From a virus, in IMG/VR virus record IMGVR_UViG_3300045257_000199, positions 1 to 42,351 of that record: a stretch of DNA of 42,351 bases, one strand, 5' to 3'. The notes under the pieces were generated by a model, which was not told the origin of the DNA, did not search any database, and was given only the letters and a program-made list of their open reading frames with translations. Below, one piece after another: positions 28,959-42,351 of this stretch (positions are counted from its first letter, which is position 1; every line of letters begins with the position of its first letter). The position numbers and the translations under genes were made by a program.

Positions 28959-30014
28959 TTAAGAAGGCGTTGTCGTTCCCGTGGCCAGAACGAAATGAAC
29001 GCGGCGGTTCTTCAAAATAAACTGATACGTGGAATCAAGGAAATGTGCACTGATCGTATGCTGGCCAGGATAGATCGGCACCCTCGTTTCCTTCAGCCAC
29101 CAGCCCCGAAGGATGTAGGTCTTGAACACGCCCCAATTGATGCCGTACACGGGGTTCGTGGTATCCGCTTCCAGCTTCGGCACCCAGGTTACGCCAACGC
29201 GGCGGAACATCGTGAGGCCGTCCTTCGAGGCCAGATCGTTGCCGAGGTTGTCGTTCTGAGACTCGACGGCTTCCTCCAACGGGCCGATCACACCATAGTT
29301 CGTGTAGAAGCCGTAATTGTCCCCAGTGTTGAACGTTGGGATGCCGTCAACCGGAGGCTGGAAGTCCGTGAAGGTCGCCGCCTTCCTCCAGTGGCGAATG
29401 AGATCGTCACGGGAAACACTCGTGTACTGGTAGGTCCAGTTGTTCCAGCGCGGATAGACGGTGGGGTTGAGGCCGATGGTGGTGTAACCGGAGGGAGCCC
29501 CGCCGTTGAAGCCTTCGGTCGCGTTTTTCACGATCCAGGTATTGACACCCCAGGGAGTCACAAGGTCCGTCGTCGGAACCGGCGGTCCCCAGAAGTTTGC
29601 CTCCATCAGCTCGGCCAGTGAGATCAGAGCCGCGATGCGCTTGGTCTGAACCAAGTTGACAATTCTTCTTGGTTCACGATTCATATCAATGACTTGGCCG
29701 ATGATCGAGTAATTGGTCGTCGAGTTCCTCCAGTCGGCCGTGGCCTGGACCATCGTGTCCACGTCGTTGACGTTGTCGCTGGCCCCCAGGCCGACGTTGG
29801 CAGCGGCGCCAGTCTGGTTCACCATGACATCCCACTGCACCCCGTAGCCGGACTCCAGCACAATGCGGTTCACCTTCAGGAGGTTCCGCATGGCGGTGTG
29901 CTTTTGTAAGTCCGTGGCAATTTCGGTGAAGCGCATTTCACCGAGATCGCGCAGCGTGGTATTAACAAGGTCGCCGATGGCAACTGCGGTTAAAGCATTC
30001 GGGGTGACGGCCAC
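28959..30014 (-). CDS. major capsid protein
   Basis: This 351-residue protein follows the scaffold gene and precedes decoration-type genes, the standard position of the major capsid protein. The N-terminus has an E-M-R-F-T-E-I-A helix like the N-arm, then N-x-x-x-W-D-V-M-V-N-Q-T-G-A-A-N. The body is mixed with long beta stretches (Y-N/N-Y-S-I-I-G-Q-V-I-D-M) and ends K-N-R-R-V-H-F-V-L-A-T-G. I identify it by context and by resemblance to HK97-fold capsids of podovirus-like metagenomic phages. The GTG follows AAAGGGAG. Confidence 0.75.
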   Translation of the reverse strand: MAVTPNALTAVAIGDLVNTTLRDLGEMRFTEIATDLQKHTAMRNLLKVNRIVLESGYGVQWDVMVNQTGAAANVGLGASDNVNDVDTMVQATADWRNSTTNYSIIGQVIDMNREPRRIVNLVQTKRIAALISLAELMEANFWGPPVPTTDLVTPWGVNTWIVKNATEGFNGGAPSGYTTIGLNPTVYPRWNNWTYQYTSVSRDDLIRHWRKAATFTDFQPPVDGIPTFNTGDNYGFYTNYGVIGPLEEAVESQNDNLGNDLASKDGLTMFRRVGVTWVPKLEADTTNPVYGINWGVFKTYILRGWWLKETRVPIYPGQHTISAHFLDSTYQFILKNRRVHFVLATGTTTPS

Positions 30015-30018
30015 GATA

Positions 30019-30038
30019 AGGCTCCCTTTAACCTGCTC
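30019..30038 (-). repeat. AGCAGGTTAAAGGGAGCC motif, first copy before capsid
   Basis: This is identical over 20 bases to 28359-28378. It places AGCAGGTTA directly upstream of the AAGGGAG ribosome-binding site of the capsid gene. Confidence 0.7.
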
Positions 30039-30041
30039 TTG

Positions 30042-30052
30042 TTAAACCTGCT
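30042..30052 (-). repeat. AGCAGGTTTAA motif, second copy before capsid
   Basis: The - strand sequence TAGCAGGTTTAA begins with the scaffold stop codon and lies 4 bases before the first copy, giving a tandem pair. Confidence 0.6.
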
Positions 30053-31145
30053 ACTGACCAGAGGCCGGAAGAAAACTATCAGGCGGCAAGTCGCCGCTCT
30101 CGCCATTCAATTCCAACTCGCGCATCTTGTCGGCAACTGCCTTGACCGCACGCTCTACTCCCTTTGGCTCGTTGCGTGTTTCGCGGTGTGTCGGCCGGGC
30201 TACGGCACCTTGCTCCCATTCTTCTTCGGTGCCAGCGGCAATCCCAACGCCCATCCGCGTGCGAGATGGCTTCGGAGCTGGCTCCTCGCCGGCACCGTAG
30301 AGTTCCGACACGATGCGGTCATACTTTTCATCGAAGGTGCCGGGCTGGCCCTTGAACTGATCGAGCAGCGCTACGACTGCTCGCCTGCGCGTGGCGTGTA
30401 AGCTGTTCGGGTCGATGCTCCTCACCGTGCCCTTGCCGAAGACTTCCTCGCGCTCGGCAAAGCGGCGGTCGAGGTGTTGAGCGGCCGTCTCGAATTGGCG
30501 AATCTGTTCGTTGCGTGCCAGGCCCTGCACCATCTGCTTGAGTTGCTTGATCTCCTTCGCCTGGTCCCTGACGATGCCGAGAGCCTTGGCCACGTTGGGG
30601 TCATAGTCGGCAGGGTCGAAGGTGAACTCGTCTTCCTGGGGCGGCGCTTGCCGGCGCGGCTGCTGAGTCGGCTGAGGCTGAGGAGCATCCTGCACCGGCG
30701 AGATCATCGGGTCGAGCGCATCGCCGCCGCCCTGCAGCAAGCGTTGCCGGTTGTTGTCGCGGGAGATCTGCAGGGCCTGCTTGTGCAGGTAGAGGACGTG
30801 TCGCTCCAGTTCGAGCGGCAACATCTCCTTGATTTCGTTTTCGGGGATGCCGTAGTCAACGGCCATCGCTACCAGCCGCGGCGAGTGCCGACCTGGTTGT
30901 GGTTCGGCGTCTCGGGCTACAAAGCGGCCGGTCTCGGGGTCTTTGGGCGGGACGGGACGAGGCGAAGCCTCCGGCTGATTTGCAGTCTCAGCCGGAGTTG
31001 CTTCTACGGTAGGGGCGACAGGGGCAGCAACGTGTATCGGTGCCGGGGACGTGTCGCCGAGGTCGTACTGCTCGACGAAGCTTTTTTCCTTGGAAGGCGC
31101 TGCCGGTGCCGGCGGCGCGGGAGTCTCGACTGTCTCTTCGGCCAC
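30051..31145 (-). CDS. scaffolding protein
   Basis: This acidic, Pro/Ala/Glu-rich 364-residue protein has a disordered N-terminal third, a central helical region (L-V-A-M-A-V-D-Y-G-I-P-E-N-E-I-K-E-M), a long coiled coil around residues 185-260 (A-K-E-I-K-Q-L-K-Q-M-V-Q-G-L), and a charged C-terminal helix. It directly precedes the major capsid gene. These are hallmarks of podovirus scaffolds, which guide procapsid assembly and leave before packaging. The GTG start is used because the frame's ATG is elsewhere. An AGCAGGTTAGA motif lies 10 bases upstream. Confidence 0.75.
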   Translation of the reverse strand: MAEETVETPAPPAPAAPSKEKSFVEQYDLGDTSPAPIHVAAPVAPTVEATPAETANQPEASPRPVPPKDPETGRFVARDAEPQPGRHSPRLVAMAVDYGIPENEIKEMLPLELERHVLYLHKQALQISRDNNRQRLLQGGGDALDPMISPVQDAPQPQPTQQPRRQAPPQEDEFTFDPADYDPNVAKALGIVRDQAKEIKQLKQMVQGLARNEQIRQFETAAQHLDRRFAEREEVFGKGTVRSIDPNSLHATRRRAVVALLDQFKGQPGTFDEKYDRIVSELYGAGEEPAPKPSRTRMGVGIAAGTEEEWEQGAVARPTHRETRNEPKGVERAVKAVADKMRELELNGESGDLPPDSFLPASGQ

Positions 31146-31157
31146 TTCATGAGCCGA

Positions 31158-31168
31158 TCTAACCTGCT
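31158..31168 (-). repeat. AGCAGGTTAGA motif, copy before scaffold
   Basis: On the - strand AGCAGGTTAGA lies between a terminator and the GTG of the scaffold gene, about 12 bases upstream of it. Confidence 0.6.
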
Positions 31169-31172
31169 GCGG

Positions 31173-31210
31173 AAAAGGATCGGCAGGTCATGACGCTTTC
31201 CTGCCGATCC
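31173..31210 (-). terminator. Rho-independent terminator before the scaffold/capsid genes
   Basis: On the - strand GGATCGGCAGG (31210-31200) pairs perfectly with CCTGCCGATCC (31187-31177) around a 12-base loop and is followed by TTTT. It would stop or weaken transcription from the portal side before scaffold and capsid, so these genes may have their own promoter or depend on antitermination. Confidence 0.75.
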
Positions 31211-31263
31211 CCGAGAACTTAACAGTTGGAAGCCTAACCGCCCCAGGTGCTTTGGTCAAGCAC

Positions 31264-31638
31264 TTAGAGTGAGATTATCAAATACTTCAGGTTGATTGCC
31301 CCGCCCGTGGCGATGCCCCAGGGGACACAAGTGCTCAACAAAGGACAGAAAGCCGGCTCTCCTGCGAGCAGTTGCAAAAGGTCAGCGCCGCCTGAACCGT
31401 TGCGAATTGTCACGGAGTTTACGGGGTCCATGTTCTTGAAGAATGCCCAATGAGGAGCCGCCACCTGGCCGAGAGGAATCGCGGTGCCGGCGGAAGTTGC
31501 AATGAGCACAACTCCCTTGGTGTAAAAATTGCCGCTCATCGAGGCGAGAAAGTTTGTGACCGCGTCCCCGTCCGCTTGCTCCATGACGAGGGGCTTGAAC
31601 AGGCTGAGGCTGGCGGTAATGGTGATCTCGTTTGCCAT
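31264..31638 (-). CDS. hypothetical beta-rich virion protein (124 aa)
   Basis: The protein has a small Ala/Gly/Thr-rich beta sandwich (I-T-I-T-A-S-L-S-L-F-K-P, G-V-V-L-I-A-T-S-A-G-T-A-I-P-L-G-Q-V). No family is recognised. The position behind a receptor-binding candidate suggests a virion part. It is the last gene before the terminator at 31173. Confidence 0.55.
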   Translation of the reverse strand: MANEITITASLSLFKPLVMEQADGDAVTNFLASMSGNFYTKGVVLIATSAGTAIPLGQVAAPHWAFFKNMDPVNSVTIRNGSGGADLLQLLAGEPAFCPLLSTCVPWGIATGGAINLKYLIISL

Positions 31639-31641
31639 TGG

Positions 31642-32826
31642 TCACGTCCCTACTTTGAAAGCATGGATTCCCAAGGTGCCGCTGCCTACCCATGTGCCGC
31701 TCAGAATCAGTTCGTTTGTGTCAGGGTCGAAGGCGGAGCCGGTGAAGAGGTTGCCCCCAGGCAGATTCCCCATCATGGGGAACGGATCGAAGACGCTGTC
31801 GGCTCTGGGGTCCCAAGGAGCGATCTTCCCTGAAATAACGTCGGCATACTTTGCCGGGTTGTCGATCGCGCAGTAGCCGTGGTGCTGTGTTGCATGGTAA
31901 CCCTTGGACACATCGACGGTGTCCTTGTTGCCACTGACCGGATCAGGATTGAGACCATACCAGACATAGCCGTCTCCGTAGTGGCCAAAGTAAAGCACTC
32001 CAATAAGCGTGTCTGTTTCGACCCAGCAGGCGGTTGACACAACGCCGTTGTTGATCCATGGGCCACCGGTCTTCGGCGTTGTCTGCGTGGCCGAGGTGTA
32101 GGTGCCTGGGTAATCGTCTTCATGGCCAATCGGGTAGCCCAGCAATTCGACAGAGGGCATTGTGCTGTTCGGCGTCAAGGAACTCGGCTTGGCAATCGAG
32201 ATGAACGAACGCCCCCATGGGGAGCCAGCATCGCCGGCAGCAAGGCCGGCGCCGAAGTAGAGGTTGCCGCTGGGATCACTCGTCGCCCACAGCCGGCAGA
32301 ACTTGTTCGTGGCCGTAACAAAGACCGGCCCCTGGCTGCTCAACGTTCCGTCCGCGTTGAACTTCGTCAGGAACAACACGGGCTTGTCGCCGCCGCTTAC
32401 GTCGTAGTGGCCCCCAAAGACCGTATACAACGTGTCCCCGATCATACACATCCCGCCGATCTGGAGGCCTCCGCTGGCGGGCGGGATCGGCGCCCACGTC
32501 AAGCACCCTTGCTGCCAGGCGGCCGGCAGCCAAGTGTTAAGCAGCGCAGCCGCGGGCGGTCCCGTGGTGCTGAAGCCGGGCAGCGTGATCTCGTAGAGCG
32601 GGTTCTGTTGCGTGTCGGGGCCGGCGACCAGAAGTGACTTCGTTCCATCCGGCCGGCGGCGCAGAGCAATGGCCTGGTTGCTCCGCGCATCGAGCGGCGT
32701 GTTCATCATGCCCAGGTAGGTGAGGTCGCTCTGCTTGATCGTGGCCTTGGCATCAGGAGGTAAAAGTGCGAGGCCGCTGGTGATGTTGGCCTGGGCCTGA
32801 ATGAAATAGTCGCGTGCGGTCGGCAT
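31642..32826 (-). CDS. probable beta-propeller surface or receptor-binding protein (394 aa)
   Basis: After an N-terminal helix (D-Y-F-I-Q-A-Q-A-N-I) come repeated strand groups with aromatic/Gly motifs: G-D-T-L-Y-T-V-F-G-G-H-Y-D, G-N-L-Y-F-G-A-G-L, and L-I-G-V-L-Y-F-G-H-Y-G-D-G-Y-V-W-Y-G-L. This is the pattern of a propeller or sialidase-like fold. It is likely a surface-exposed binding protein, but without a catalytic set I can name. The ATG at 32826 follows GGAGGGGG. The open frame to 32973 is a shadow. Confidence 0.55.
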   Translation of the reverse strand: MPTARDYFIQAQANITSGLALLPPDAKATIKQSDLTYLGMMNTPLDARSNQAIALRRRPDGTKSLLVAGPDTQQNPLYEITLPGFSTTGPPAAALLNTWLPAAWQQGCLTWAPIPPASGGLQIGGMCMIGDTLYTVFGGHYDVSGGDKPVLFLTKFNADGTLSSQGPVFVTATNKFCRLWATSDPSGNLYFGAGLAAGDAGSPWGRSFISIAKPSSLTPNSTMPSVELLGYPIGHEDDYPGTYTSATQTTPKTGGPWINNGVVSTACWVETDTLIGVLYFGHYGDGYVWYGLNPDPVSGNKDTVDVSKGYHATQHHGYCAIDNPAKYADVISGKIAPWDPRADSVFDPFPMMGNLPGGNLFTGSAFDPDTNELILSGTWVGSGTLGIHAFKVGT

Positions 32827-32827
32827 G

Positions 32828-33229
32828 CTATCCCCCTCCCGAAAAAGGCTTGACCCATCCCCAGGTATCGAGCGCGGCAAGCCACGCAACAAGAGGCTGG
32901 CTTGGATTCCTGATGAACGGTGGGTTAATAACGAGGTTGGTGTACGTGAGCGTGCCCGTGTCTTCCTGGGCACCGAATTCGTCCTTGTCGGGAGTGATGC
33001 TGGCGATCAAGCAACTCGCTTGCCCTCCCTGAACGACATGCGGGTTTCCACCATTGTCGAGGATCACCCAGAGGCCGTTGAAACAGGAAAGATGCCAGCC
33101 AACGGCAGTAAGGGAGATGCCGGTCTGCTGGATGCCGTTGTCATCCAGATAAGTCGCGCCCCGGTACTGTATGGAGCCGTTGGGATTCCCGGCACCCACA
33201 TTTTCAACGCTAACCAGTGTTCCCATCAT
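32828..33229 (-). CDS. hypothetical beta-rich protein (133 aa)
   Basis: The start is ATG-ATG (33229 or 33226), 20 bases inside a membrane miniprotein gene. The product is beta-rich with G-S-I-Q-Y-R-G-A-T-Y-L-D-D-N-G-I-Q and W-V-I-L-D-N-G-G-N-P. Not recognised; a virion attachment protein is possible. Its TAG ends one base before the next ATG. Confidence 0.55.
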   Translation of the reverse strand: MMGTLVSVENVGAGNPNGSIQYRGATYLDDNGIQQTGISLTAVGWHLSCFNGLWVILDNGGNPHVVQGGQASCLIASITPDKDEFGAQEDTGTLTYTNLVINPPFIRNPSQPLVAWLAALDTWGWVKPFSGGG

Positions 33230-33311
33230 GGTAGCTGCCCCGTTTCACTGCATAGAGTATGAGACCGAAGATGATGCCGAACCAGATGCCGACGATCAGC
33301 TCCCAGGTCAT
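33210..33311 (-). CDS. membrane miniprotein (33 aa)
   Basis: The ATG overlaps the stop of the next upstream miniprotein (ATGA). One hydrophobic helix (L-I-V-G-I-W-F-G-I-I-F-G-L-I-L-Y-A) is followed by a short basic tail (K-R-G). It fits a one-helix membrane protein. Function unknown. Confidence 0.6.
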   Translation of the reverse strand: MTWELIVGIWFGIIFGLILYAVKRGSYHDGNTG

Positions 33312-33466
33312 CGTTCATCTTTCCACGGAATGAGCCAGCGATGGATCATTTCGATTGCACACACGGACACAGCCAGGATCACACAAAAGATCAGGACCAT
33401 GTTCTCAACAAAGCCGCCGAAGATGTCATCGAGGATGTCCACCAGAGGCCGCTTGCCACCACTCAA
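33308..33466 (-). CDS. membrane miniprotein with TTG start (52 aa)
   Basis: The TTG overlaps the preceding stop (TTGA), and its own TGA overlaps the next ATG (ATGA). A polar N-terminus (D-I-L-D-D-I-F-G-G-F) is followed by a hydrophobic helix (M-V-L-I-F-C-V-I-L-A-V-S-V-C-A-I) and a charged C-terminus. An N-out or N-in single-pass protein. Confidence 0.6.
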   Translation of the reverse strand: MSGGKRPLVDILDDIFGGFVENMVLIFCVILAVSVCAIEMIHRWLIPWKDER

Positions 33467-33561
33467 TCAAGGTCCTCATCATCATCCAAGTAAAACCAGC
33501 AGAGGAGCCACACCCCCACAATGACGCCTGCCCCCAGAGCAGCCCATGGCACCCAATTCAT
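33463..33561 (-). CDS. membrane miniprotein (32 aa)
   Basis: The ATG overlaps the upstream stop (ATGA). A membrane helix (W-A-A-L-G-A-G-V-I-V-G-V-W-L-L-C-W-F-Y) ends in an acidic tail (L-D-D-D-E-D-L-D). The acidic tail would stay in the cytoplasm with the N-terminus outside. Confidence 0.6.
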   Translation of the reverse strand: MNWVPWAALGAGVIVGVWLLCWFYLDDDEDLD

Positions 33562-33713
33562 GCGCCTTCCCACTGGTGAAGAGAAGGGAACCTCCGCCAC
33601 TCCAGGCGGGCATGGCGGAGGTTCAGGCTAACGGCGGCGAAGAAGTCGAAAAGGCATTCGTGCAATGCCCACGACAAGCTTCCGCAGCCGATGAGGTCGA
33701 GCACTTCCAGCAT
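33558..33713 (-). CDS. putative small protein (51 aa)
   Basis: The stop overlaps the next ATG (ATGA), which supports the frame. The N-terminus is moderately hydrophobic (V-L-D-L-I-G-C-G-S-L-S-W-A-L-H-E-C-L-F-D-F-F-A), the C-terminus basic. The start is uncertain: the ATG at 33713 has no strong site, and the 26-base gap after the previous gene is otherwise empty. Confidence 0.45.
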   Translation of the reverse strand: MLEVLDLIGCGSLSWALHECLFDFFAAVSLNLRHARLEWRRFPSLHQWEGA

Positions 33714-33739
33714 CGTCCGATGCCTCTTGAGGATCAGCT

Positions 33740-34327
33740 TCAGCTACTGCAAGCCCGGCCCCGCTGGTAGGCGGGGCGGTAACGAAAAAAGCGGCGTGCC
33801 TGGTACTCGGCCGGCACGTTGGAAACGCCCGCCTCCTGCTCCTCCCCGGCGCTTGCCGATGTTGGAGTTGGAGATTCGGCGGGCGCTGATGGTTCTGCAA
33901 TAGGAGTTAAAGCAACGGCTACCTCCTTGGTTATGGCAGCGCCGGGTTTATCGCATGAGCAAGCCGCGCCTTCCGCGCAGCCGCAATCGCAGTTCTTGCA
34001 GGGCGGCTCGACCTGAGCCAAGACGGCAACCTCGACATAGTCACGAGCGCGCGGCAGGCTGACCTCAGCAACGACCGAGTCGCGGGCGCGGGGCAGACTC
34101 TGAGCACTCACCATGCTCGGCAGGAACAACAGACAGAGCAGGATCGCCAGCCCGTAAGCCGTCATTGCAAAATCGACGATCTTGTTGGCCCCCTTGAGCA
34201 GCCCGATCACAATAGCATTCTGGGTCCGTGCTTCGAGGCCAGCAAAGAAGCTGTCTACCAGAGCCTGCAAGGCCGAACTGTCGGCTTCCTTCATGGCCGT
34301 CTTCAAATCAGCTGCCTGCATTTTCAT
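33740..34327 (-). CDS. membrane-anchored Cys-patch protein (195 aa)
   Basis: The ATG follows AAGGAG. A helical N-terminus precedes one hydrophobic segment (A-I-L-L-C-L-L-F-L-P-S-M-V-S-A) near residues 60-75, which resembles a signal or anchor. A short direct repeat (S-L-P-R-A-R-D) follows twice, then a Cys patch (P-P-C-K-N-C-D-C-G-C, A-C-S-C) able to bind metal. The rest is Pro/Ser/Glu-rich. The Cys patch would lie outside the cytosol. An internal ATG at 34165 could start a secreted form, but has no visible site. Confidence 0.55.
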   Translation of the reverse strand: MKMQAADLKTAMKEADSSALQALVDSFFAGLEARTQNAIVIGLLKGANKIVDFAMTAYGLAILLCLLFLPSMVSAQSLPRARDSVVAEVSLPRARDYVEVAVLAQVEPPCKNCDCGCAEGAACSCDKPGAAITKEVAVALTPIAEPSAPAESPTPTSASAGEEQEAGVSNVPAEYQARRFFRYRPAYQRGRACSS

Positions 34328-34338
34328 TTCGATACTCC

Positions 34339-34737
34339 TTAAGGTATGAGCGAAATCAGTTTGGTTAATTCAGCAGTCGTTGCCTGGTGCCAGTAGGCCA
34401 AGTGAGCTTCCAACAGCCGCCGGTTGTCGCCTGTAACAAGAAGCTCATGCCTTAGCACCGCGTTTATTTGGCTGATGGTGGCCGCACGCATGGATTCTGG
34501 ATCGGTGGGCAGGGCGGCCGATCCGGTGCTTTCGTCGTACTCCGCCTTCTGCATGTTGTCGGTGAACTCTTCGCCTCCCGCCTTGCAGCCGAGGTCAACG
34601 GCCCTTGCTTCGATTTCATGGGCGCGGAAGATGATGCCGTTCAGTTTCTTCTTCTGCTTGAGAGTGAGAATCCCCGCGCTCTTGAGCCATGTCAGGAGCA
34701 GGCCGAGCAGGCCGAAGATGACGCCTATCCAGATCAT
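34339..34737 (-). CDS. membrane protein with one N-terminal helix (132 aa)
   Basis: The ATG overlaps the stop of the Cys-rich protein gene (ATGA). The first ~20 residues form a membrane helix (I-G-V-I-F-G-L-L-G-L-L-L-T-W-L), followed by a basic helix (K-Q-K-K-K-L-N) and a soluble helical region. Its topology is like a spanin- or regulator-type anchor, but no family is recognised. Confidence 0.55.
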   Translation of the reverse strand: MIWIGVIFGLLGLLLTWLKSAGILTLKQKKKLNGIIFRAHEIEARAVDLGCKAGGEEFTDNMQKAEYDESTGSAALPTDPESMRAATISQINAVLRHELLVTGDNRRLLEAHLAYWHQATTAELTKLISLIP

Positions 34738-34886
34738 TTGCTGTGCTCTCCTTCACACGGAGGACATTCGCAGCAGGTGGTGCATTTCTTGCAGCCGCTG
34801 CACATGGCCTTGCAACCGCAAACACACTTGGCACAGTCGCAGGTTTCCTTTTTGCAGCAAGGACACTTCTTACCTTTCTTTGCCAT
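34734..34886 (-). CDS. cysteine-rich metallothionein-like protein (50 aa, 15 Cys)
   Basis: Translating 34886-34734 on the - strand gives 50 residues with Cys at 8, 10, 11, 16, 18, 21, 23, 25, 29, 32, 35, 38, 39, 41 and 44, plus one His at 48. The dense C-x-C, C-C and C-x2-C pattern with Lys in between is that of metallothionein-like proteins that bind several Zn, Cu or Cd ions. It is not a standard zinc ribbon, and I cannot place it in a named family. It starts with ATG after an AAGGAGT site, and its TGA overlaps the next ATG. Cytosolic: no signal peptide. A role in metal handling, redox or sequestration is inference. Confidence 0.7.
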   Translation of the reverse strand: MAKKGKKCPCCKKETCDCAKCVCGCKAMCSGCKKCTTCCECPPCEGEHSK

Positions 34887-34899
34887 GACAACTCCTTTG

Positions 34900-35154
34900 T
34901 TAAGTCAGTGAACACACAAGGATGCTGGCCAAGCCGCCGATCATATACCAGAGGAAGTCTCGGCCACTGCCCTTGACTGTATCCTGTTCCACCAGAAGGT
35001 CAAACAGCCACTCCTTGGGAACTGCCCAGCCAAGCACGGCCAACGCTTGGCCCCACCATGGCGAGCCGAGCCGCGCCGCCAACAGAACCAATGTCGCCGC
35101 TCCTAAGAAGTGAGCGGTCTGGGCAATCAGGTTGACGGACGGTTCCCAGCTCAT
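34900..35154 (-). CDS. small membrane protein, two or three helices (84 aa)
   Basis: The ATG forms a TAATG overlap with the stop of the zinc protein. Hydrophobic segments appear at ~15-30 (A-A-T-L-V-L-L-A-A), ~38-50 (Q-A-L-A-V-L-G-W-A-V) and at the C-terminus (Y-M-I-G-G-L-A-S-I-L-V). The segment K-E-W-L-F-D-L-L-V is reminiscent of VanZ-type or YfiM-like membrane folds. A holin or other lysis role is possible but unproven. Confidence 0.55.
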   Translation of the reverse strand: MSWEPSVNLIAQTAHFLGAATLVLLAARLGSPWWGQALAVLGWAVPKEWLFDLLVEQDTVKGSGRDFLWYMIGGLASILVCSLT

Positions 35155-35258
35155 TACTTGAAAGCAGTGCAGGTGCAGCCCTTGACCTTGCACTTACCTC
35201 CCCGGTGCTTGTGTTTCGGGTGACCACAGGTAGCGCATTTGTGCCCAGCAGTTGCCAT
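35154..35258 (-). CDS. Cys/His zinc miniprotein (34 aa)
   Basis: The ATG has AGGAG 7 bases upstream, placed right after the stop of the duplicated miniprotein. The sequence contains C8-x2-C11-G-H ... H-K-H, then C-K-V-K-G-C-T-C. The four or more Cys and several His can bind zinc. Function unknown. It is one of three Cys-rich products within 1.5 kb. Confidence 0.6.
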   Translation of the reverse strand: MATAGHKCATCGHPKHKHRGGKCKVKGCTCTAFK

Positions 35259-35269
35259 TGAACGCTCCT

Positions 35270-35392
35270 TTAAGACTTGCCCCAGAGCCGATCCCACAAG
35301 ACTTTGCCGATGATGAAGGGCGCGGCTAAAGCTGAGCGGATAATCCACCAGAAGTATAACAGCACAATGAAAAGGTTCTGCAAAAAGGTCAT
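35270..35392 (-). CDS. duplicated membrane miniprotein, copy 2 (40 aa)
   Basis: The N-terminal M-T-F-L-Q-N-L-F-I-V-L-L-Y-F-W-W-I-I is nearly identical to the product at 35655-35753, while many codons differ. One hydrophobic helix spans residues ~7-18 and a second hydrophobic stretch ~20-32 (S-A-L-A-A-P-F-I-I-G-K-V-L). It ends W-D-R-L-W-G-K-S. The ATG overlaps the end of the extended reading frame that follows the previous gene's TAG. Confidence 0.65.
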   Translation of the reverse strand: MTFLQNLFIVLLYFWWIIRSALAAPFIIGKVLWDRLWGKS

Positions 35393-35454
35393 ACCATCGA
35401 AACCGCGTCCGTCGCCTTCGCTTCCTGAATCCGAATGAGCCGCCTCCCGACTCG

Positions 35455-35658
35455 CTAGGGAGCCACAGGCCGAAGAGTTGCAGCACCAGGTTTAATCCCA
35501 ATCCAAGGATTTCCACGGTCTTGATCGTTCAAGAAAATCTCTGGCGGATAAGTATTGCCGCCAGTTGGCATTGGCCCGACGATATAAAGGAACACTTCAA
35601 AGTCTCCCTGGCGCTCTATACGCTGTTGGAGTTCCTCGACCATTTCACTAGCTTTCAT
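35455..35658 (-). CDS. hypothetical soluble protein (67 aa)
   Basis: The ATG overlaps the stop of the duplicated miniprotein copy 1 (ATGA). Residues 1-25 form a helix (M-V-E-E-L-Q-Q-R-I-E-R-Q), then strands (F-L-Y-I-V-G-P-M-P). The TAG stop at 35455-35457 is unusual: the same frame continues 21 sense codons to a TGA at 35389-35391 overlapping the next ATG (35390-35392), as if the stop were a recent or suppressed one. Confidence 0.55.
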   Translation of the reverse strand: MKASEMVEELQQRIERQGDFEVFLYIVGPMPTGGNTYPPEIFLNDQDRGNPWIGIKPGAATLRPVAP

Positions 35659-35753
35659 CTGATCCATCCTTTTCTGGTCTGCCTGTTCCGTGGCGAGCAT
35701 ATGATCCACCAGAAGTACACGAGCACAATGAAGAGGTTTTGCAAGAAGGTCAC
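35655..35753 (-). CDS. duplicated membrane miniprotein, copy 1 (32 aa)
   Basis: The GTG overlaps the upstream stop (GTGA) and the TGA overlaps the downstream ATG (ATGA). The sequence M-T-F-L-Q-N-L-F-I-V-L-V-Y-F-W-W-I-I matches copy 2 at 35270. A single membrane helix with a basic C-terminus (R-N-R-Q-T-R-K). Confidence 0.65.
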   Translation of the reverse strand: MTFLQNLFIVLVYFWWIICSPRNRQTRKGWIR

Positions 35754-35911
35754 TGCTTGTCGCCAATCCTTTTGGCTAGGGCTTCGACGGCTTCTTGTAA
35801 CTGCGTAAAGCCACGGTTGAGCAATTCATACTGAATCTCAAGGCCAGCAAGACCTTCTTCAAGAACAACCAGACGCTCCTCGACAGTCATTCCCTCTTTT
35901 GCTTTTGCCAA
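35750..35911 (-). CDS. small coiled-coil protein with TTG start (53 aa)
   Basis: The TTG follows AGGAGGAG at 4 bases. The product is an acidic amphipathic coiled coil (V-L-E-E-G-L-A-G-L-E-I-Q-Y-E-L-L) with no membrane segment. The TGA overlaps the next GTG. Unknown function. Confidence 0.6.
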   Translation of the reverse strand: MAKAKEGMTVEERLVVLEEGLAGLEIQYELLNRGFTQLQEAVEALAKRIGDKQ

Positions 35912-35921
35912 TGTACTCCTC

Positions 35922-36728
35922 CTATGTCGTTGACGCCGCCTCCGTCACCACCACCCAGGCATCATCGGGCCACGCTTTGGAGCCTGTCAAGTCGCCTACT
36001 CCTTGCTGGCTCCACGAATCCCCCCAGGAATTAAAGATGCGCGTCGTTGTCGGCGACATGACGCGGATCAGGCAGACGCTGTGACTCCACCAATTATAGT
36101 CGGCGATCACAGGAAGCCCCAGGAGCGAAGCCGTGGCTACCTGCTGCCGGCGCAGAGTCGGATCATCCGAGCAGTCCAGGAACTTGATGCACTTGTGCAG
36201 AGCCGCGTTCGCCCAGGTCTCAGGCTTATCGTTGGAACTGGACATGCTCTGCATCGGCCAGAACTGCGCCGACGGGATGCCTCTGTCCGCGATGAATTGG
36301 AGCGAGTCGATGCCGTTGCCGCCCTGGTCGCGGTAGCCCTTGATGATGCACGCCACGGCGAACGCCGACAGGGGAACATACGGTTCATTGTTGGCTGCTC
36401 GCGCGAGAGTCACCGCCGAGGTCGAACTGTGCGCCCAGCAGTAGCCTTTGCCGTCCTGGTCGTAAGTGGGAATCTGCCCGCCGTAGTTCCCTTTATCTCT
36501 GATGTGCTGGAGGCTGGACTGGTTCGCCTCCTGGTCCGCGATCCGTGCCGCCCACTCGCTTTCGGGGATAAGGTCGAGGTCGAAGGAAGGTGCTATCGCC
36601 AGGCAACCTTGCGGGTGTTTGGACCAGTCGCGCGGGACAAGGCCCTTGGCACGCACGCGGCCATCATCTCCGACGTGCTGCAAGTGCTCGGTCCAATTAT
36701 CGTCGCCAATGGTGATGAGGTCGCCCAT
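35922..36728 (-). CDS. papain-family (C1-like) cysteine protease
   Basis: This 268-residue protein has the papain active site: Q91 (oxyanion hole) and C97 in D-Q-D-G-K-G-Y-C-W-A-H-S, H216 in W-W-S-H-S-V, and N233 in I-F-N-S-W-G-D-S-W. The spacing and order match C1A peptidases. The first ~80 residues are a pro-region-like or structural extension (I-P-E-S-E-W). There is no signal peptide, and a membrane helix is absent. Roles to consider: virion-maturation protease, lysis enzyme acting on peptidoglycan crossbridges, or attack on host proteins. A phage-encoded papain-like enzyme is uncommon. The ATG overlaps the previous stop (TAATG). Confidence 0.75.
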   Translation of the reverse strand: MGDLITIGDDNWTEHLQHVGDDGRVRAKGLVPRDWSKHPQGCLAIAPSFDLDLIPESEWAARIADQEANQSSLQHIRDKGNYGGQIPTYDQDGKGYCWAHSSTSAVTLARAANNEPYVPLSAFAVACIIKGYRDQGGNGIDSLQFIADRGIPSAQFWPMQSMSSSNDKPETWANAALHKCIKFLDCSDDPTLRRQQVATASLLGLPVIADYNWWSHSVCLIRVMSPTTTRIFNSWGDSWSQQGVGDLTGSKAWPDDAWVVVTEAASTT

Positions 36729-36901
36729 TACTTTTTCTCCTTGACGAACTGAGCAAGGTAAAGCTTGGCCTGAAGCAGCGCCAGGTTAAGCACGTCCATG
36801 TCATCCTCTGATACTGCCCCTTTACCACGCAACTTCGCCGCACGGTCAAAGCGCCGTTGCTGCGTCTCGACAATTTCTTTAAGGATGTCCTCTTCGCTCA
36901 C
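36728..36901 (-). CDS. hypothetical small charged protein (57 aa)
   Basis: The GTG abuts the previous stop (TAA-GTG), and the stop overlaps the protease ATG (TAATG). The product is one long charged helix (E-E-D-I-L-K-E-I-V-E-T-Q-Q-R-R-F) with no recognised motif. It could be a partner of the protease next to it. Confidence 0.6.
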   Translation of the reverse strand: MSEEDILKEIVETQQRRFDRAAKLRGKGAVSEDDMDVLNLALLQAKLYLAQFVKEKK

Positions 36902-37411
36902 TTATTTCCGTGCCTTCCATTTTTCCAGCCAGTTATCTACTACAGGTTTCTGAGCTGGAAGAGGTTTTACACTCCTTAGAATCATGTCCCGCTCCGCTTG
37001 TGGCAGGTTGCCGCTGTAAGCGGCGTTCTTGATCGCGGCTTCCAGGGTCCGCCCCATGCCCATGCCCACAAATCCGTCCGAGTCAAGCCTGTACCAGTTA
37101 CCGTCAGGCAACTTGGCCCAATGAGGATTGCCGAAGTCAACGCCAAGGTAATACATAGGCAGCATCCCAACAACGGTCACACACGGACACGGGTTGACAC
37201 CTTTTATAGTGACGGTTGACCTTACGCCGATCTTCCAGCGGTACATAAGGGTAATCACATCGTCCTCTGTCATGAACGGATTGAGCCGCGCTTCGGACAC
37301 CGGGTTGGCCTGGCAGTAGCCGGCAGCAATGAACAACGCCACCACCGTGTGGATGACGGTCCACAGCAGCCACAGTTCAGAGATCATGCCGCGAAAGTTG
37401 CTTTGCGTCAT
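36902..37411 (-). CDS. membrane-anchored protein (169 aa)
   Basis: The ATG overlaps the upstream stop (ATGA). The N-terminal helix (L-W-L-L-W-T-V-I-H-T-V-V-A-L-F-I-A-A-G-Y) is a signal anchor. The soluble part contains M-L-P-M-Y-Y-L-G-V-D-F-G-N and G-M-G-M-G-R-T-L-E-A-A. No enzyme motif is recognised, but the topology, with a soluble domain in the periplasm or virion, fits a lysis or entry protein. Confidence 0.55.
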   Translation of the reverse strand: MTQSNFRGMISELWLLWTVIHTVVALFIAAGYCQANPVSEARLNPFMTEDDVITLMYRWKIGVRSTVTIKGVNPCPCVTVVGMLPMYYLGVDFGNPHWAKLPDGNWYRLDSDGFVGMGMGRTLEAAIKNAAYSGNLPQAERDMILRSVKPLPAQKPVVDNWLEKWKARK

Positions 37412-37494
37412 CCCACCACCATGACCGTCCACAAGAGGACAACGAAGGCGACGAATATGAGCGGGCACAAGCAGCCGTCGATGAAGCTTCTCAT
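37408..37494 (-). CDS. membrane miniprotein (28 aa)
   Basis: ATGA overlaps at both ends. The sequence is one hydrophobic helix (L-C-P-L-I-F-V-A-F-V-V-L-L-W-T-V-M-V-V-G). It is among the shortest genes here, supported by the coupled junctions. Confidence 0.6.
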   Translation of the reverse strand: MRSFIDGCLCPLIFVAFVVLLWTVMVVG

Positions 37495-37667
37495 TGGGTC
37501 TTTTCCACGGTCAATTCAAACCCCTCGCCGCTCTGCGTCAACACTCGGAAACGAGCTTGGTCGGGATAAACTTCCGCCTGTGCCATAACGAGGCCTGGCA
37601 ACTTGCCGTCGCGGATAGCAGCAGCCACGGCGTCAAGAATCAGATTTCTAAGCTCCTTGGCGGTCAT
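37491..37667 (-). CDS. hypothetical soluble protein (58 aa)
   Basis: ATGA overlaps at both ends. The protein has an N-terminal helix (E-L-R-N-L-I-L-D-A-V-A-A-A-I) and C-terminal strands (A-R-F-R-V-L-T-Q-S-G-E-G-F-E-L-T-V). No family is recognised. Confidence 0.6.
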   Translation of the reverse strand: MTAKELRNLILDAVAAAIRDGKLPGLVMAQAEVYPDQARFRVLTQSGEGFELTVEKTQ

Positions 37668-37804
37668 CCCATGCTGTCCTTCCAAGCCCTTTCGATAAGC
37701 ACAAGCGGGGCTATGAAAATCAGCCAAACAAGACATATGACGAGCATAAACGCCCAGGCCCCAGCCCAAACAGCGATAGCCGGAATCCAAGCCAAAATCT
37801 TCAT
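37664..37804 (-). CDS. membrane miniprotein, two helices or one long one (46 aa)
   Basis: ATGA overlaps at both ends. The sequence is hydrophobic almost throughout (L-A-W-I-P-A-I-A-V-W-A-G-A-W-A-F-M-L-V-I), then a polar end (E-R-A-W-K-D). Holin-like size, but no proof. Confidence 0.6.
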   Translation of the reverse strand: MKILAWIPAIAVWAGAWAFMLVICLVWLIFIAPLVLIERAWKDSMG

Positions 37805-37914
37805 TCGTCGCAACTCTTCCACCAGTCCCACAGCACCTGAACCAAGATCACCCAGGGCCGAATGCTCGCGTACACGACAGCCACCAGCACGGCCACGCAC
37901 TTCAAAACGATCAT
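37801..37914 (-). CDS. membrane miniprotein (37 aa)
   Basis: Both ends overlap neighbours through ATGA. Residues 2-17 (I-V-L-K-C-V-A-V-L-V-A-V-V-Y-A-S) and 21-29 (W-V-I-L-V-Q-V-L-W) are hydrophobic. A short amphipathic C-terminus (D-W-W-K-S-C-D-E) ends it. Confidence 0.6.
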   Translation of the reverse strand: MIVLKCVAVLVAVVYASIRPWVILVQVLWDWWKSCDE

Positions 37915-38120
37915 GGCGCGTCTTTTTGAAAGAACCAAAGAGTAACAAGCTGTCCGATCGCTGCTTCTGGGAACTCGTCGTTTGGCAGGTACACCAAAAC
38001 CGTAATGTCTCTCGCCAACCGGGTATTGGGCTTTATCGTGCGCACTAGAGTAACTTGGCGAGAGTCGTCATTCACCCTTTCTACCGCACGGACCTGATAC
38101 TCTTCTTTATTACCTACCAT
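37911..38120 (-). CDS. hypothetical soluble protein (69 aa)
   Basis: The ATG at 38120 follows AGTGAGG, and a GGAG lies further upstream. The open frame to 38171 is not used. The protein looks beta-rich (V-T-L-V-R-T-I, I-T-V-L-V-Y-L-P), without membrane segments. Unknown. Confidence 0.55.
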   Translation of the reverse strand: MVGNKEEYQVRAVERVNDDSRQVTLVRTIKPNTRLARDITVLVYLPNDEFPEAAIGQLVTLWFFQKDAP

Positions 38121-38127
38121 CCTCACT

Positions 38128-38220
38128 TCACTCCTTACGATGTATAAGCCAATAGCTAATAGCAAAGGCAACTCCGACTAAGCCGAAGCCAATACACATT
38201 GCCATTGCTACATAGTTCAT
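38128..38220 (-). CDS. membrane miniprotein (30 aa)
   Basis: The ATG overlaps the stop of the upstream gene (ATGA). The sequence is one helix (V-A-M-A-M-C-I-G-F-G-L-V-G-V-A-F-A-I-S-Y) with a basic C-terminus (H-R-K-E). Its TGA lies 7 bases before the next start. Confidence 0.6.
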   Translation of the reverse strand: MNYVAMAMCIGFGLVGVAFAISYWLIHRKE

Positions 38221-38399
38221 TTCAGCAACCCATCCTGTTCATTCAAGACGTCATCTAAAAGCATCTCATCTAGTTCCTGTTCGTGACGAACTGCCCAGAA
38301 CCTCTGCTGTGCCTTTACTATCCTCTGGTGAAATGGTGTTAGATGGGTCATCGCACCAAAGATGTCCAGTATTTGTTTCCGTAACTCTTCACGGCTCAT
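38217..38399 (-). CDS. hypothetical acidic small protein (60 aa)
   Basis: The ATG at 38399 has GAGG at 8 bases, formed by sequence at the end of the previous gene. An ATG at 38423 gives a form 8 residues longer. The product is a charged, mostly helical protein (E-E-L-R-K-Q-I-L-D-I-F-G-A-M). The stop overlaps the next ATG. Unknown. Confidence 0.55.
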   Translation of the reverse strand: MSREELRKQILDIFGAMTHLTPFHQRIVKAQQRFWAVRHEQELDEMLLDDVLNEQDGLLK

Positions 38400-38409
38400 T
38401 TTGTTTGCC

Positions 38410-39234
38410 TCATGGTGTCGCATACTTCTGCATTAGTGACATCATGTCGTTCACCGTCGCCGGCAGCGGCCCCTCGTAGCCGGTCTTGCCGTTCGAGATA
38501 ATCAGCCAGGGCAACGAAGCCCGCGGCCGTTTGAAAGCATCCTGCCAAGTTTTGCTCTCGTTGGTCATGTCCTCATTCGAGGGCAGGAACCGCGACTCGA
38601 CCGTCTTCCCATCAGGGCCGACCGCTGCATGGCTCCTGAGCCAGCCGCGCACGGTTTCGGAGTTAAGCACGTCAAGCTGAGCAGGAGTAAGCTTGCCTAG
38701 CGTTGCAGGATCATAGATTGCAAGGAGCCGCAGGCCGGTGCCAGGGATCGGGGCCGGCGGCGCGGGCGGAACTGGAGGCACTGGCGGCACGGGAGGGATT
38801 GGTCCAGGGCCAGGCGCCGGAGTGCCAACGGTGATCGTGCAGGTATACGGCCCAACGATCTTGCCGCCGTGAATGCCCCGGAGCAGCAGCGTGTAGACGC
38901 CAGGGTTCGGTGCGACGAAGAAGTTCTTCTTGCCGGCTTCGATCAGCACAAGATCCCACTCACCCGGATCGTTCTTCGAGTCCCATTGCAAATCCGTCGC
39001 CGTGCTCTGCACATCGATCTCGACTATCCTGCCTGGCAACGCGGCCACGGCCGAGGGCAGGACGATGTCAGGAGGCGGATTCGTGTGCGCCCACCACCAC
39101 CATAGCCAGCCGCCTCCGACAAGCAGGGCGGTCAGCACAACACCAGCGAGGGCAGCGACCGCCAGCGGTCCCCAATTAGTTGCAGGAGCCGGCGCTGGAG
39201 CGGGAGGAGCAGGGGGAGTCGGAGGTTGGGCCAT
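38410..39234 (-). CDS. membrane-anchored Pro-rich protein with Ig/PKD-like and thioredoxin-like domains (274 aa)
   Basis: A Pro/Ala-rich N-terminus leads into a membrane helix (residues ~25-47, V-A-A-L-A-G-V-V-L-T-A-L-L-V-G-G-G-W-L-W). A beta domain follows (~60-140) with G-V-Y-T-L-L-L-R-G and G-P-Y-T-C-T-I-T-V-G, as in PKD or Ig folds. A P-P-V-P-P-V-P-P spacer separates it from a C-terminal domain with L-P-W-L-I-I-S-N-G-K-T-G-Y-E-G-P-L-P, resembling a thioredoxin-like beta-hairpin without the C-x2-C. The role is unknown, perhaps surface exposure of the infected cell or virion. Confidence 0.5.
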   Translation of the reverse strand: MAQPPTPPAPPAPAPAPATNWGPLAVAALAGVVLTALLVGGGWLWWWWAHTNPPPDIVLPSAVAALPGRIVEIDVQSTATDLQWDSKNDPGEWDLVLIEAGKKNFFVAPNPGVYTLLLRGIHGGKIVGPYTCTITVGTPAPGPGPIPPVPPVPPVPPAPPAPIPGTGLRLLAIYDPATLGKLTPAQLDVLNSETVRGWLRSHAAVGPDGKTVESRFLPSNEDMTNESKTWQDAFKRPRASLPWLIISNGKTGYEGPLPATVNDMMSLMQKYATP

Positions 39235-39236
39235 CG

Positions 39237-39788
39237 TTACTCCTTGGAGGTGATTGTTACATTGTCCCCGCTCTTGATGACGCCAGTCGCCACAGCAGCC
39301 TTGACGGCGTCCACTTCTGCTTGCTTCGCTTCATGCGCGTCTGACGCCTGCCTCGCTGCTAGGGCGGCCTGTTTATCCTCGTCGGTTCCCCTGAGTGACG
39401 CAATAAGCGCTCTGTCCGCTGCTCGATCCTTCAGCACAACGGACATCGAGTTGTTCACGAGCACATGAATCGCATCCAGCTTATGATCGAAAGTATCCGT
39501 CTTCGTTGCCAGAACATCTTTGACCTTTTCAACATTGGAGGCCGTTGTTACTGCTCTGGTCTCGACGCGGTCCATCTGCTGCTCAGCTCGTGCAGCGCTG
39601 CCCCTCTGCTGAAGCATCCCCAGAAGCGCCACAGTGACCAGCGAGCAGAAGCCGAGAATTTGCACGGAGGTTTCATGGGCAAAGGAAGCGCCCAGCACTC
39701 CCAGCGCCACGACAACGCCGAGGGCTACAAGGATTGCTTTCTGGCCTGCCCCATTTGCCCAACCGTTCCGGCCTGAGATGTCATCCAT
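39237..39788 (-). CDS. two-helix membrane protein with C-terminal coiled coil (183 aa)
   Basis: Two hydrophobic helices near residues 15-35 and 42-60 (I-L-V-A-L-G-V-V-V-A-L-G-V-L-G-A, I-L-G-F-C-S-L-V-T-V-A-L-L-G-M) precede a long coiled coil (A-E-Q-Q-M-D-R-V-E-T-R...). This is the layout of some phage holin/spanin-type proteins. Assignment is by topology only. Confidence 0.55.
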   Translation of the reverse strand: MDDISGRNGWANGAGQKAILVALGVVVALGVLGASFAHETSVQILGFCSLVTVALLGMLQQRGSAARAEQQMDRVETRAVTTASNVEKVKDVLATKTDTFDHKLDAIHVLVNNSMSVVLKDRAADRALIASLRGTDEDKQAALAARQASDAHEAKQAEVDAVKAAVATGVIKSGDNVTITSKE

Positions 39789-39820
39789 CCCTTACCCCTT
39801 GAGTGCCGGCACACGCCCAG

Positions 39821-40033
39821 CTAGAACATGCTCCAGATGAGCTTGATGGCGAAGATGGCCACCACCACGACCAGCACAATCCAGAAGATCGTAATCATAA
39901 ACGGCGGAATCATAATGCCCATCTGTTGCAAGGCAACATACATGATAGCTATGCACCCAGCTATCACGATGATGAGTATGATGATCTTCAGCCAACTCCA
40001 GCCGGCGAAAGGATTGCCAGGTCCGTTACTCAT
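39821..40033 (-). CDS. small two-helix membrane protein, holin candidate (70 aa)
   Basis: Two strong membrane helices (I-I-I-L-I-I-V-I-A-G-C-I-A-I-M-Y-V-A and I-T-I-F-W-I-V-L-V-V-V-V-A-I-F-A-I) with a short loop and a positively charged C-terminus. The ATG follows AAGGAG. Size and topology fit class II holins, which perforate the inner membrane, but this is not proven. Confidence 0.6.
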   Translation of the reverse strand: MSNGPGNPFAGWSWLKIIILIIVIAGCIAIMYVALQQMGIMIPPFMITIFWIVLVVVVAIFAIKLIWSMF

Positions 40034-40054
40034 GGTGAAACTCCTTGGACTCGC

Positions 40055-40468
40055 CTATCTCTTCAAATTTCTCGCCATCTGCCAAAGAAGCGATGCCGGA
40101 ACTGCGCCCTCGTTCGGCCTGTCCGGCACATCCCGCTTGCAACTGCCCGGCGCCGCGTCGCCGTAGCCGCCTGACTTGTCGAAGAAGCCGTACATCTGGC
40201 AATACCGCTTCCGCTGCTCCCGGCTCGTAAACACGGGCCGACCATCCGGCATGAACTCGGTCGGCACACCTTTCTTCTTGGCGTCCTCAGTTGCTTCCTT
40301 GACCTGGCTCGGATGCACGGCCAGGCCGTCGCTTGCCAGCGGCTTCCAGGCAACAAACGAATCTCCAGCACGAGGCCGCGGCGTGAACTGCTCATCGAAC
40401 TCCTGTTCGGTCAGGAGTTGCCCCATGACCTCGTAAAAAATCCCGTTTTCAGTTTCGACTCGGCGCAT
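40055..40468 (-). CDS. hypothetical phage protein (137 aa)
   Basis: It follows the portal gene by 9 bases. It is a mixed alpha/beta sequence with Y-E-V-M-G-Q-L-L-T-E-Q-E-F and R-P-V-F-T-S-R-E-Q-R-K-R-Y, and a C-terminal tail S-G-G-Y-G-D. I recall similar proteins beside portal genes in other phages but know no function. Confidence 0.6.
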   Translation of the reverse strand: MRRVETENGIFYEVMGQLLTEQEFDEQFTPRPRAGDSFVAWKPLASDGLAVHPSQVKEATEDAKKKGVPTEFMPDGRPVFTSREQRKRYCQMYGFFDKSGGYGDAAPGSCKRDVPDRPNEGAVPASLLWQMARNLKR

Positions 40469-40477
40469 ATGACCCCC

Positions 40478-42238
40478 TCATCGCATGGGGCTCCCGTTCG
40501 TTTGCGCCTGGCCATTCGGCTTCGGCGCCATCGCGTTCATGCGGCCAATGTCGGTCCCGTGCCTCGAAGCCGCACCGCTCGAATGCCGCTCGTACGTACG
40601 GCTCGTCGTGCCCGGCTTGCCTGGCCGGTTCATCCCTGGGCTCGACATCTGCGGCGGCTCCATGATGGTCAGAATCTCCGCCAGGTCCGGCGCGTCCATG
40701 TACTGACCCAGCTTCTCCAGGTAAGCGTTGGCGTCGAAGGCGATGCCCTGCTGCACCAGCAACTGCATCATCGGAATGATAGTCTGAGTCACCACCTGCT
40801 GCATCGCGGCCATGCGTTCCTGTGGCGTCTGGTGCCGGAGGCTATACGGGTCGATGCGAATGTCCAACTCCGCGAAGTTCACGCGCTGCCGATCCTGCGG
40901 CTTCACGAAGCGCTGGATGTTGAACTCGGGCAGCCCCTGGACCGAGTGAAGCGAGCGCATGACCTTCTGCGGATCGTGCCACCAGTACCACATCATCGCT
41001 TTGACCACATCGGCCACAAAGATCGTGGTCTGATCCTGCATGTCGGTGATCTGCCCCGAGGCGTTGGCATTGAGCATCTTGTCCTGGCCGAGCGTCCGCG
41101 ACTGCGGCCCTTCGCCGCCCATCAGCTCAAGGTTGCCGGCCTCGCGGTTGAAGAGGTCGTATGCCTGGCCGAACATGCCGAAGTTCTGCTGGTTCGGGGC
41201 GCCGTGGCTGAAGGGCTTGATCGACTCGGGGCGGTCGAGGCGCACAATATCGCCGTCGTTAGCTTCGAGGATGCGGCTACCGTCTTCCGTAGCCCCCATG
41301 GCAACGCCGGTCAGTTCCTTTTGCCTTTCCGCTTGCCGCATGAGCTTGCGGAAGACGTTGTTGATGAAGTAGTGCAGGTCGAGGAGGTCCTGGATCGGCC
41401 CCTTCGGCATAGGGTTCCCCGGCACCCGTTCATAACCGAGCAGATGGTAAGGCCCCGTGTCCGGGCCGAGCCAGGGCTGCTCTCTAAGAGGCACACCAGC
41501 TCCGCCAGCTCGGCTTTCATTCGCTCCAGTAAGCGAATCGTCTGCGAGAGTAAGCACGAGCCGATGCCGGGGAAGGTACACTTCCCAGAGGTCAATAAGA
41601 TCCTCAAACTCTTCGCTATCAATGCCGTAGTAGCTTCGGCCGAGCATGCTGATTCGTTCATCCCCTTCCAGGTTGAAGGCCTGGTCGTAGTGGGCAACGA
41701 GCGCCTCGCGCGCCTGGCGGTTGTAGTGCTTGTCTTCACGGATCACCTCCAGCGGCACTCGGTATCTGTGGCCGATGAAGGAACATTCTTGGAAGTCCCG
41801 CGCATGAATGTCAAATACAAAGTCGTCGAGATCCACGCGCTCGCAAAAGACGCTGCCAGCTTTCAGGTTCCACGACATGCGCGCCGAGTCCGCGGGCGTG
41901 CCCAGGGCCACCTTGCAGATGCCGATCGAGAAGAGGCCGTCGATCACGCAGCGCTGGAGCGTGTTGGCAAGTCGGAGTTGCTCGATCTCTTTATTGACCC
42001 ACGTTTGGCAGGCCGACACCATCGGCTTGTGCGCACGGTCGAAGGTCGAGAGGAGCACGCGCGGCTCCTTGGGGACCATGCTGCGGCCGACGATCTTGAC
42101 GTACTTGGAGATGAGGTTGACGGGGACTTTTTCTTGCGTGCCTTCTTCGGACCAGTGGCGGCCGACCATTTGCCGAACGGCTTCGCGGCGCTCCTCACGG
42201 TAGCGGCGCAAGGCGAGGCGGGAGCGCTGCATCGCCAT
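40478..42238 (-). CDS. portal protein (586 aa)
   Basis: The portal forms the dodecameric DNA channel of the capsid vertex. Support: length, position between the end of an upstream gene (likely terminase) and the late morphogenesis genes, and family-typical blocks: an N-terminal basic helix (R-R-Y-R-E-E-R-R-E-A-V-R-Q-M), G-L-F-S-I-G-I-C-K-V-A-L-G-T-P-A, G-P-I-Q-D-L-L-D-L-H-Y-F-I-N-N, L-G-Q-D-K-M-L-N-A-N-A-S-G, and a C-terminal barrel-type helix (Q-Q-V-V-T-Q-T-I-I-P-M-M-Q-L-L). The final ~60 residues are Pro/Gly/Arg-rich. ATG at 42238 or 42232. The site upstream is weak. Confidence 0.85.
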   Translation of the reverse strand: MAMQRSRLALRRYREERREAVRQMVGRHWSEEGTQEKVPVNLISKYVKIVGRSMVPKEPRVLLSTFDRAHKPMVSACQTWVNKEIEQLRLANTLQRCVIDGLFSIGICKVALGTPADSARMSWNLKAGSVFCERVDLDDFVFDIHARDFQECSFIGHRYRVPLEVIREDKHYNRQAREALVAHYDQAFNLEGDERISMLGRSYYGIDSEEFEDLIDLWEVYLPRHRLVLTLADDSLTGANESRAGGAGVPLREQPWLGPDTGPYHLLGYERVPGNPMPKGPIQDLLDLHYFINNVFRKLMRQAERQKELTGVAMGATEDGSRILEANDGDIVRLDRPESIKPFSHGAPNQQNFGMFGQAYDLFNREAGNLELMGGEGPQSRTLGQDKMLNANASGQITDMQDQTTIFVADVVKAMMWYWWHDPQKVMRSLHSVQGLPEFNIQRFVKPQDRQRVNFAELDIRIDPYSLRHQTPQERMAAMQQVVTQTIIPMMQLLVQQGIAFDANAYLEKLGQYMDAPDLAEILTIMEPPQMSSPGMNRPGKPGTTSRTYERHSSGAASRHGTDIGRMNAMAPKPNGQAQTNGSPMR

Positions 42239-42285
42239 AACGAGGCGGGACAGGTCGTACTTGTGCTTAGCCGTGAGATGTCGAT

Positions 42286-42296
42286 TCTAACCTGCT
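42286..42296 (-). repeat. AGCAGGTTAGA motif, copy before portal
   Basis: On the - strand this holds the stop codon of the upstream gene (G-C-A G-G-T T-A-G) and lies 48 bases before the portal ATG. It is too far from the start to act as a ribosome-binding site. Confidence 0.6.
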
Positions 42297-42351
42297 ATCG
42301 GATTTTCTTGCCGTGCGTCGATCTCTGTCCACGCATCGAGATACTCGGCGA
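42287..42351 (-). CDS. 3' end of an upstream late gene, probably terminase large subunit (partial)
   Basis: The last 20 codons before a TAG are visible (A-E-Y-L-D-A-W-T-E-I-D-A-R-Q-E-N-P-I-A-G), with the rest outside the window. In phages of this type the gene upstream of the portal is nearly always the terminase large subunit, but the tail alone has no diagnostic motif. Confidence 0.5.
   Translation of the reverse strand, partial: AEYLDAWTEIDARQENPIAG

Follow-up and report, generated by a model that had tools for sequence, protein, structure and literature searches.

A small cysteine-dense, metallothionein-like gene conserved among related uncultured phages

A gene for a small cysteine-dense protein was found in a 42,351-base IMG/VR virus record (the whole stretch of DNA that was analysed, hereafter the window), and its product is probably a phage-encoded, cytoplasmic, metallothionein-like metal-thiolate buffer made together with the late structural proteins. 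The minus-strand frame running from 34886 to 34734 translates as MAKKGKKCPCCKKETCDCAKCVCGCKAMCSGCKKCTTCCECPPCEGEHSK (50 aa, 15 Cys), in agreement with the cysteine count given by a preceding reading of the sequence alone (the sequence-only reading). The strong ribosome-binding site and ATGA exit described in that reading were also confirmed: AAAGGAG lies 5 bases upstream of the ATG, and the stop codon overlaps the start of the next gene as ATGA. AAAGGAG also precedes the gene in two close relatives from other IMG/VR records (L002 and L003) and GGAG in a third (L334), and the ATGA coupling recurs in L002, i.e., it is present in two of the four copies. The reported C-x-C, C-C, and C-x2-C pattern is made up of five CxC, two CC, and five CxxC motifs. 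In 60 second-order Markov versions of the window, the maximum number of cysteines per 50-codon open stretch was 10, versus the 15 observed; therefore, the cysteine density is not a product of chance.

All four copies encode proteins of 47–53 aa and 4.9–5.6 kDa with 14–16 Cys (26–34%) and 8–11 Lys, and each carries CC and CxxC motifs as well as five or six CxC. Phe, Trp, and Tyr are absent from all of them, versus 7.7% aromatic residues in the long ORFs of the window. The residues other than cysteine are mainly Lys, Gly, Ala, Pro, Thr, and acidic residues, very few of which could contribute to a core, and the single His occurs only in the window copy, at a position that is not conserved among the four. 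No signal peptide is visible in the sequence of the window protein. AlphaFold predicted almost no secondary structure and no confident fold for this protein (mean pLDDT 57), a result expected of a metal-free metallothionein and equally of any poorly sampled short chain.

The homologues were reached via the neighbouring papain-like cysteine peptidase, and each copy lies downstream of that gene. The peptidases of L002 and L003 are 92% and 78% identical to that of the window, respectively, and that of L334 (54%) is accompanied by a more divergent metallothionein-like gene in the same slot. The sequence-only reading had named the loss of cysteines in homologues as the observation that would speak against it; in these related phages, the cysteines are kept, with 14 invariant across the three close copies (window, L002, and L003) and 13 across all four. 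The dN/dS ratios for the three close pairs were 0.32, 0.18, and 0.12. Judged from these comparisons, the cysteine positions are kept under purifying selection, and the frame is a real, conserved gene. The alignment of the L334 protein with the window protein was outscored by only 2 of 2,000 composition-matched shuffles. Meanwhile, a profile built from the three close copies gave no significant score for L334 under composition correction, and archaeal ORFs selected by motif reached a similar shuffle z-score; therefore, the homology of the L334 copy rests on its sequence and the shared slot together.

When the window protein alone was used as the query in a standard search, no relative was retrieved from the viral contigs, a failure probably explained by composition filters that remove sequences of this kind. 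With A1 as the query, the L003 contig alone was recovered, and no match to the window protein occurred in INPHARED. Complete scans of the viral contigs with CDCxxCxCGC and CxxC[KR][KR]CxxCCxC gave the two known relatives together with frames judged to be unrelated, and the second motif gave nothing but zinc-ribbon-like or antisense frames in 84,980 genomes. A 7-Cys DNA pattern was also tried and was set aside; among the matches listed, only antisense or low-complexity sequences appeared.

In all four copies, the slot lies downstream of the peptidase gene and between the portal and capsid genes; the gene of the window is oriented like the structural genes and lies within a minus-strand block. 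The gene occupies this slot in 4 of the 26 non-redundant peptidase-bearing relatives, counting the window and one relative (L351) with only 0.6 kb of downstream sequence. Because L004 (the same as L330; peptidase identity 71%) and L331 (61%) are without the gene while L334 (54%) has it, it has been gained or lost in a patchy manner. L003, with the gene, and L004, without it, bear the same metagenome number, 3300032180. An HNH_3 endonuclease gene also lies in the slot of L003 (Table 1), in keeping with a site that houses accessory genes. Since most relatives are without the cysteine-rich gene, it is not essential to the phage group; we regard it as an accessory gene gained or lost by some members.

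The window also encodes an SU10-type portal protein, a YqaJ/RecE-like exonuclease, DNA adenine methyltransferases, and a weakly recognised major head protein. INPHARED contained no relative of the portal protein; the phage group is therefore uncultured, as far as searched. In the peptidase, which is likewise encoded between the portal and capsid genes, Q91, C97, H216, and N233 are invariant in 17 phages, and the enzyme perhaps acts in head maturation or host takeover. Among the other neighbours, the 132-aa protein had no Pfam or PHROG match, and the 34-aa protein weakly matched PHROG 1311 and 6114 (E 0.003–0.005), both of unassigned function. In the part of the window proteins that was searched, neither a metal transporter nor a metal regulator was recognised, and Rfam gave no match in 30000–42351. 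Through a 58-base direct repeat (35334–35391 and 35695–35752, 84% identical), the start of a small hydrophobic peptide, MTFLQNLFIVL.YFWWII, is present twice.

Table 1. Features of the cysteine-rich gene region of the window and of related or compared records
Feature	Position	Strand	Remarks
Metallothionein-like gene	34734..34886	(-)	50 aa, 15 Cys; evidence: Cys conservation in homologues, dN/dS, ribosome-binding site, ATGA coupling
AAAGGAG ribosome-binding site with the 5-base spacer to the ATG	34887..34898	(-)	AAAGGAG-TTGTC-ATG
Next gene, 132 aa, N-terminal hydrophobic segment	34339..34737	(-)	Start overlaps stop of cysteine-rich gene (ATGA); conserved in L002–L004
Papain-like cysteine peptidase, upstream anchor of the slot	35922..36728	(-)	PF00112, E 0.0022, below curated cut-off
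Cys/His-rich small protein, 34 aa, MATAGHKCATCGHPKHKHRGGKCKVKGCTCTAFK	35154..35258	(-)	Own AAAGGAG site
Protein with transmembrane-like segment and outer Cys cluster, CKNCDCGCAEGAACSC	33740..34327	(-)	Secreted-type proteins of relatives carry similar clusters
HNH_3 endonuclease gene	L003:8807-9358	(-), opposite strand	Between peptidase and metallothionein-like gene
SmtA-like ORF, annotated hypothetical	L367:1998-2219 = MW495066.1:111775-111996		Record of 274 kb, labelled as Microcystis phage MaAM05

Proteins of a secreted or membrane type that carry short cysteine clusters (e.g., CGPGCTCGADCPGVGCDC) are encoded in the same region of many relatives, among them L333, L335, L339, L343, L344, L352, and L353. 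No Pfam match was found among those scanned, and for those tested, the alignment to the window protein was not above the shuffle level. The sequence-only reading had suggested that the metallothionein-like protein might supply metal to cysteine-rich neighbours or guard against metal stress in the host; the first of these ideas is disfavoured because such proteins also occur in relatives without the gene.

The host probably belongs to the Planctomycetota. Within one Planctomycetota family, 5 of 150 genomes carried homologues of the peptidase, next to genes similar to the phage neighbours, which makes planctomycetes the likeliest hosts by inference. Some of these planctomycete homologues adjoin thioredoxin/glutaredoxin-like or trypsin-like genes. 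No homologue of the cysteine-rich protein that could represent a cellular source was detected in a sample of 392 planctomycete genomes (E≤0.001); the same query did give matches in the three virus records. A weak match of 17 residues (E 0.004) in the 150 genomes of one planctomycete family was dismissed as too short. PF02069 metallothioneins, a type to which the phage protein does not belong, occurred in 2 of 101 genomes of the peptidase-bearing family.

The cysteine-rich protein had no match in Pfam (including PF02069 and PF00131), PHROGs, or NCBIfam, and at E≤10, neither PF02069, PF00131, nor any Pfam zinc ribbon matched any of the four proteins. The same Pfam search found the control sequences for SmtA (E 1.5e−20) and human MT-2A (E 5.6e−23), so the negative result is informative; PF02069 also gave no match in the window, but it did match its positive control from Synechococcus elongatus. 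A PDB profile search gave nothing significant, its sole match (Hakai, E 0.4) being judged a chance one. The general sequence features of metallothioneins, namely, low mass (below about 10 kDa), high cysteine content (about 15–35%), cysteine motifs, few or no aromatic residues, and conserved cysteines, are all found in the protein. The term "metallothionein-like" used in the sequence-only reading is therefore apt descriptively, given the small size, the cysteine content of 30%, the lack of aromatics, and the conserved cysteines, but it does not hold as membership of a known family.

Among the alternatives, the frame might be short and spurious, with no protein product, and overlapping frames do exist on the opposite strand; however, the conserved sequence, slot, and ribosome-binding site, the ATGA coupling in two of four copies, and the low dN/dS largely refute this, leaving it extremely improbable. 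The strongest competing reading is that of a zinc ribbon or zinc knuckle with additional cysteines, which would hold two to four structural Zn ions and contact a partner such as the host polymerase, a nucleic acid, or a phage protein, rather than store metal. This possibility, which we consider unlikely, draws on CPxC and CxxCKKCxxCCxC motifs in common with the archaeal ORFs L317, L309, and L320, whose alignment is above the shuffle level, although the likeness is biased, the motif having been the criterion by which the ORFs were chosen. Small neighbours are also zinc-finger-like, i.e., the 34-aa protein of the window and, in L334, a RanBP2-type ribbon overlapping the longer, GTG-started frame of the L334 gene, and the many lysines could suit contact with nucleic acid. 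The 34-aa ribbon of L334 matches several Pfam zinc ribbons, whereas the cysteine-rich proteins match none; furthermore, the cysteine-rich protein has at least twice the cysteines of a ribbon and lacks the aromatic and hydrophobic residues of a core.

It is quite improbable that the protein instead buffers thiols or redox state, or inhibits host or phage proteins by reacting with them through its cysteines, with metal binding only incidental. The nearby cysteine peptidase would suit such a role, as would the thioredoxin/glutaredoxin-like genes that adjoin the related peptidase of certain planctomycete genomes, but the exact cysteine spacing has been kept over about 46% divergence of the peptidase, a degree of conservation beyond what a bulk thiol donor would be expected to require.

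The metal-thiolate buffer remains the reading that we prefer, even with the missing family match, the CxxCKKCxxCCxC likeness to archaeal ORFs, the lack of a recognised metal transporter or regulator among the window proteins searched, and the absence of the gene from most relatives counted against it. In the reducing cytoplasm, general metallothionein chemistry would predict that a chain of this kind folds about several metal ions, and folding around metal is also suggested by the absence of a hydrophobic core. The 13–15 conserved cysteines would form thiolate clusters with several d10 ions (Zn, perhaps also Cu(I) or Cd). The protein is probably produced late in infection, and the simplest proposal for its benefit is that it would buffer metal freed or imported during host takeover, which may either protect thiol- or metal-sensitive phage proteins, with the adjacent cysteine peptidase as a candidate, or deny metal to the host. 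It is possible, though rather doubtful, that a new metallothionein family arose in planctomycete phages with no cellular parent and controls intracellular metal in late infection, e.g., to upset host defences that depend on metal or to safeguard the assembly of virions.

Most known metallothioneins come from cells. A cysteine-dense family that, within the searches made, is limited to a single phage group offers a concrete, readily expressed protein for examining whether phages control the metal ions of their hosts. It also illustrates that genes of this kind can be missed when gene calling applies a size cut-off. No paper on a phage metallothionein was found in the open-access literature searched; the term "metallothionein" in work on phage Ab31 refers to a list of bacterial genes, not to a phage gene. 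In 50,697 phage records (INPHARED), an SmtA query gave one match, MW495066 (E 1e−4). This is a metallothionein-type ORF in a phage-labelled record, like that of the window, but it is of the SmtA type and unrelated to the cysteine-rich family; because it adjoins fabI and engB, the record may be bacterial DNA filed as phage.

Compared with known systems, the protein is a metallothionein in look that belongs to no catalogued family, since its composition fits while the profiles do not match. Like the bacterial SmtA/BmtA proteins (PF02069), it is small, presumably cytoplasmic, and cysteine-rich with CxC motifs. SmtA has 9 Cys together with His and Tyr, whereas the window protein has 15 Cys and no aromatics, and their pairwise alignment was no better than shuffles. 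With animal metallothioneins (PF00131), it shares a cysteine content of about 30%, abundant lysine, the absence of aromatics, and CxC, CC, and CxxC motifs; however, the cysteine spacing is different, and the alignment to human MT-2A was no better than shuffles (p 0.32). A minus-strand ORF of Nanoarchaeota (L293; 84 aa, 24 Cys) carries repeated CPxCxRCExCCxC-like units. The archaeal zinc-ribbon-like small ORFs L317, L309, and L320, to which L293 is related, are only putative relatives of the phage protein; they share CPxC and CxxC[KR][KR]CxxCCxC with it, whereas L317 has about half as many cysteines, set between acidic spacers.
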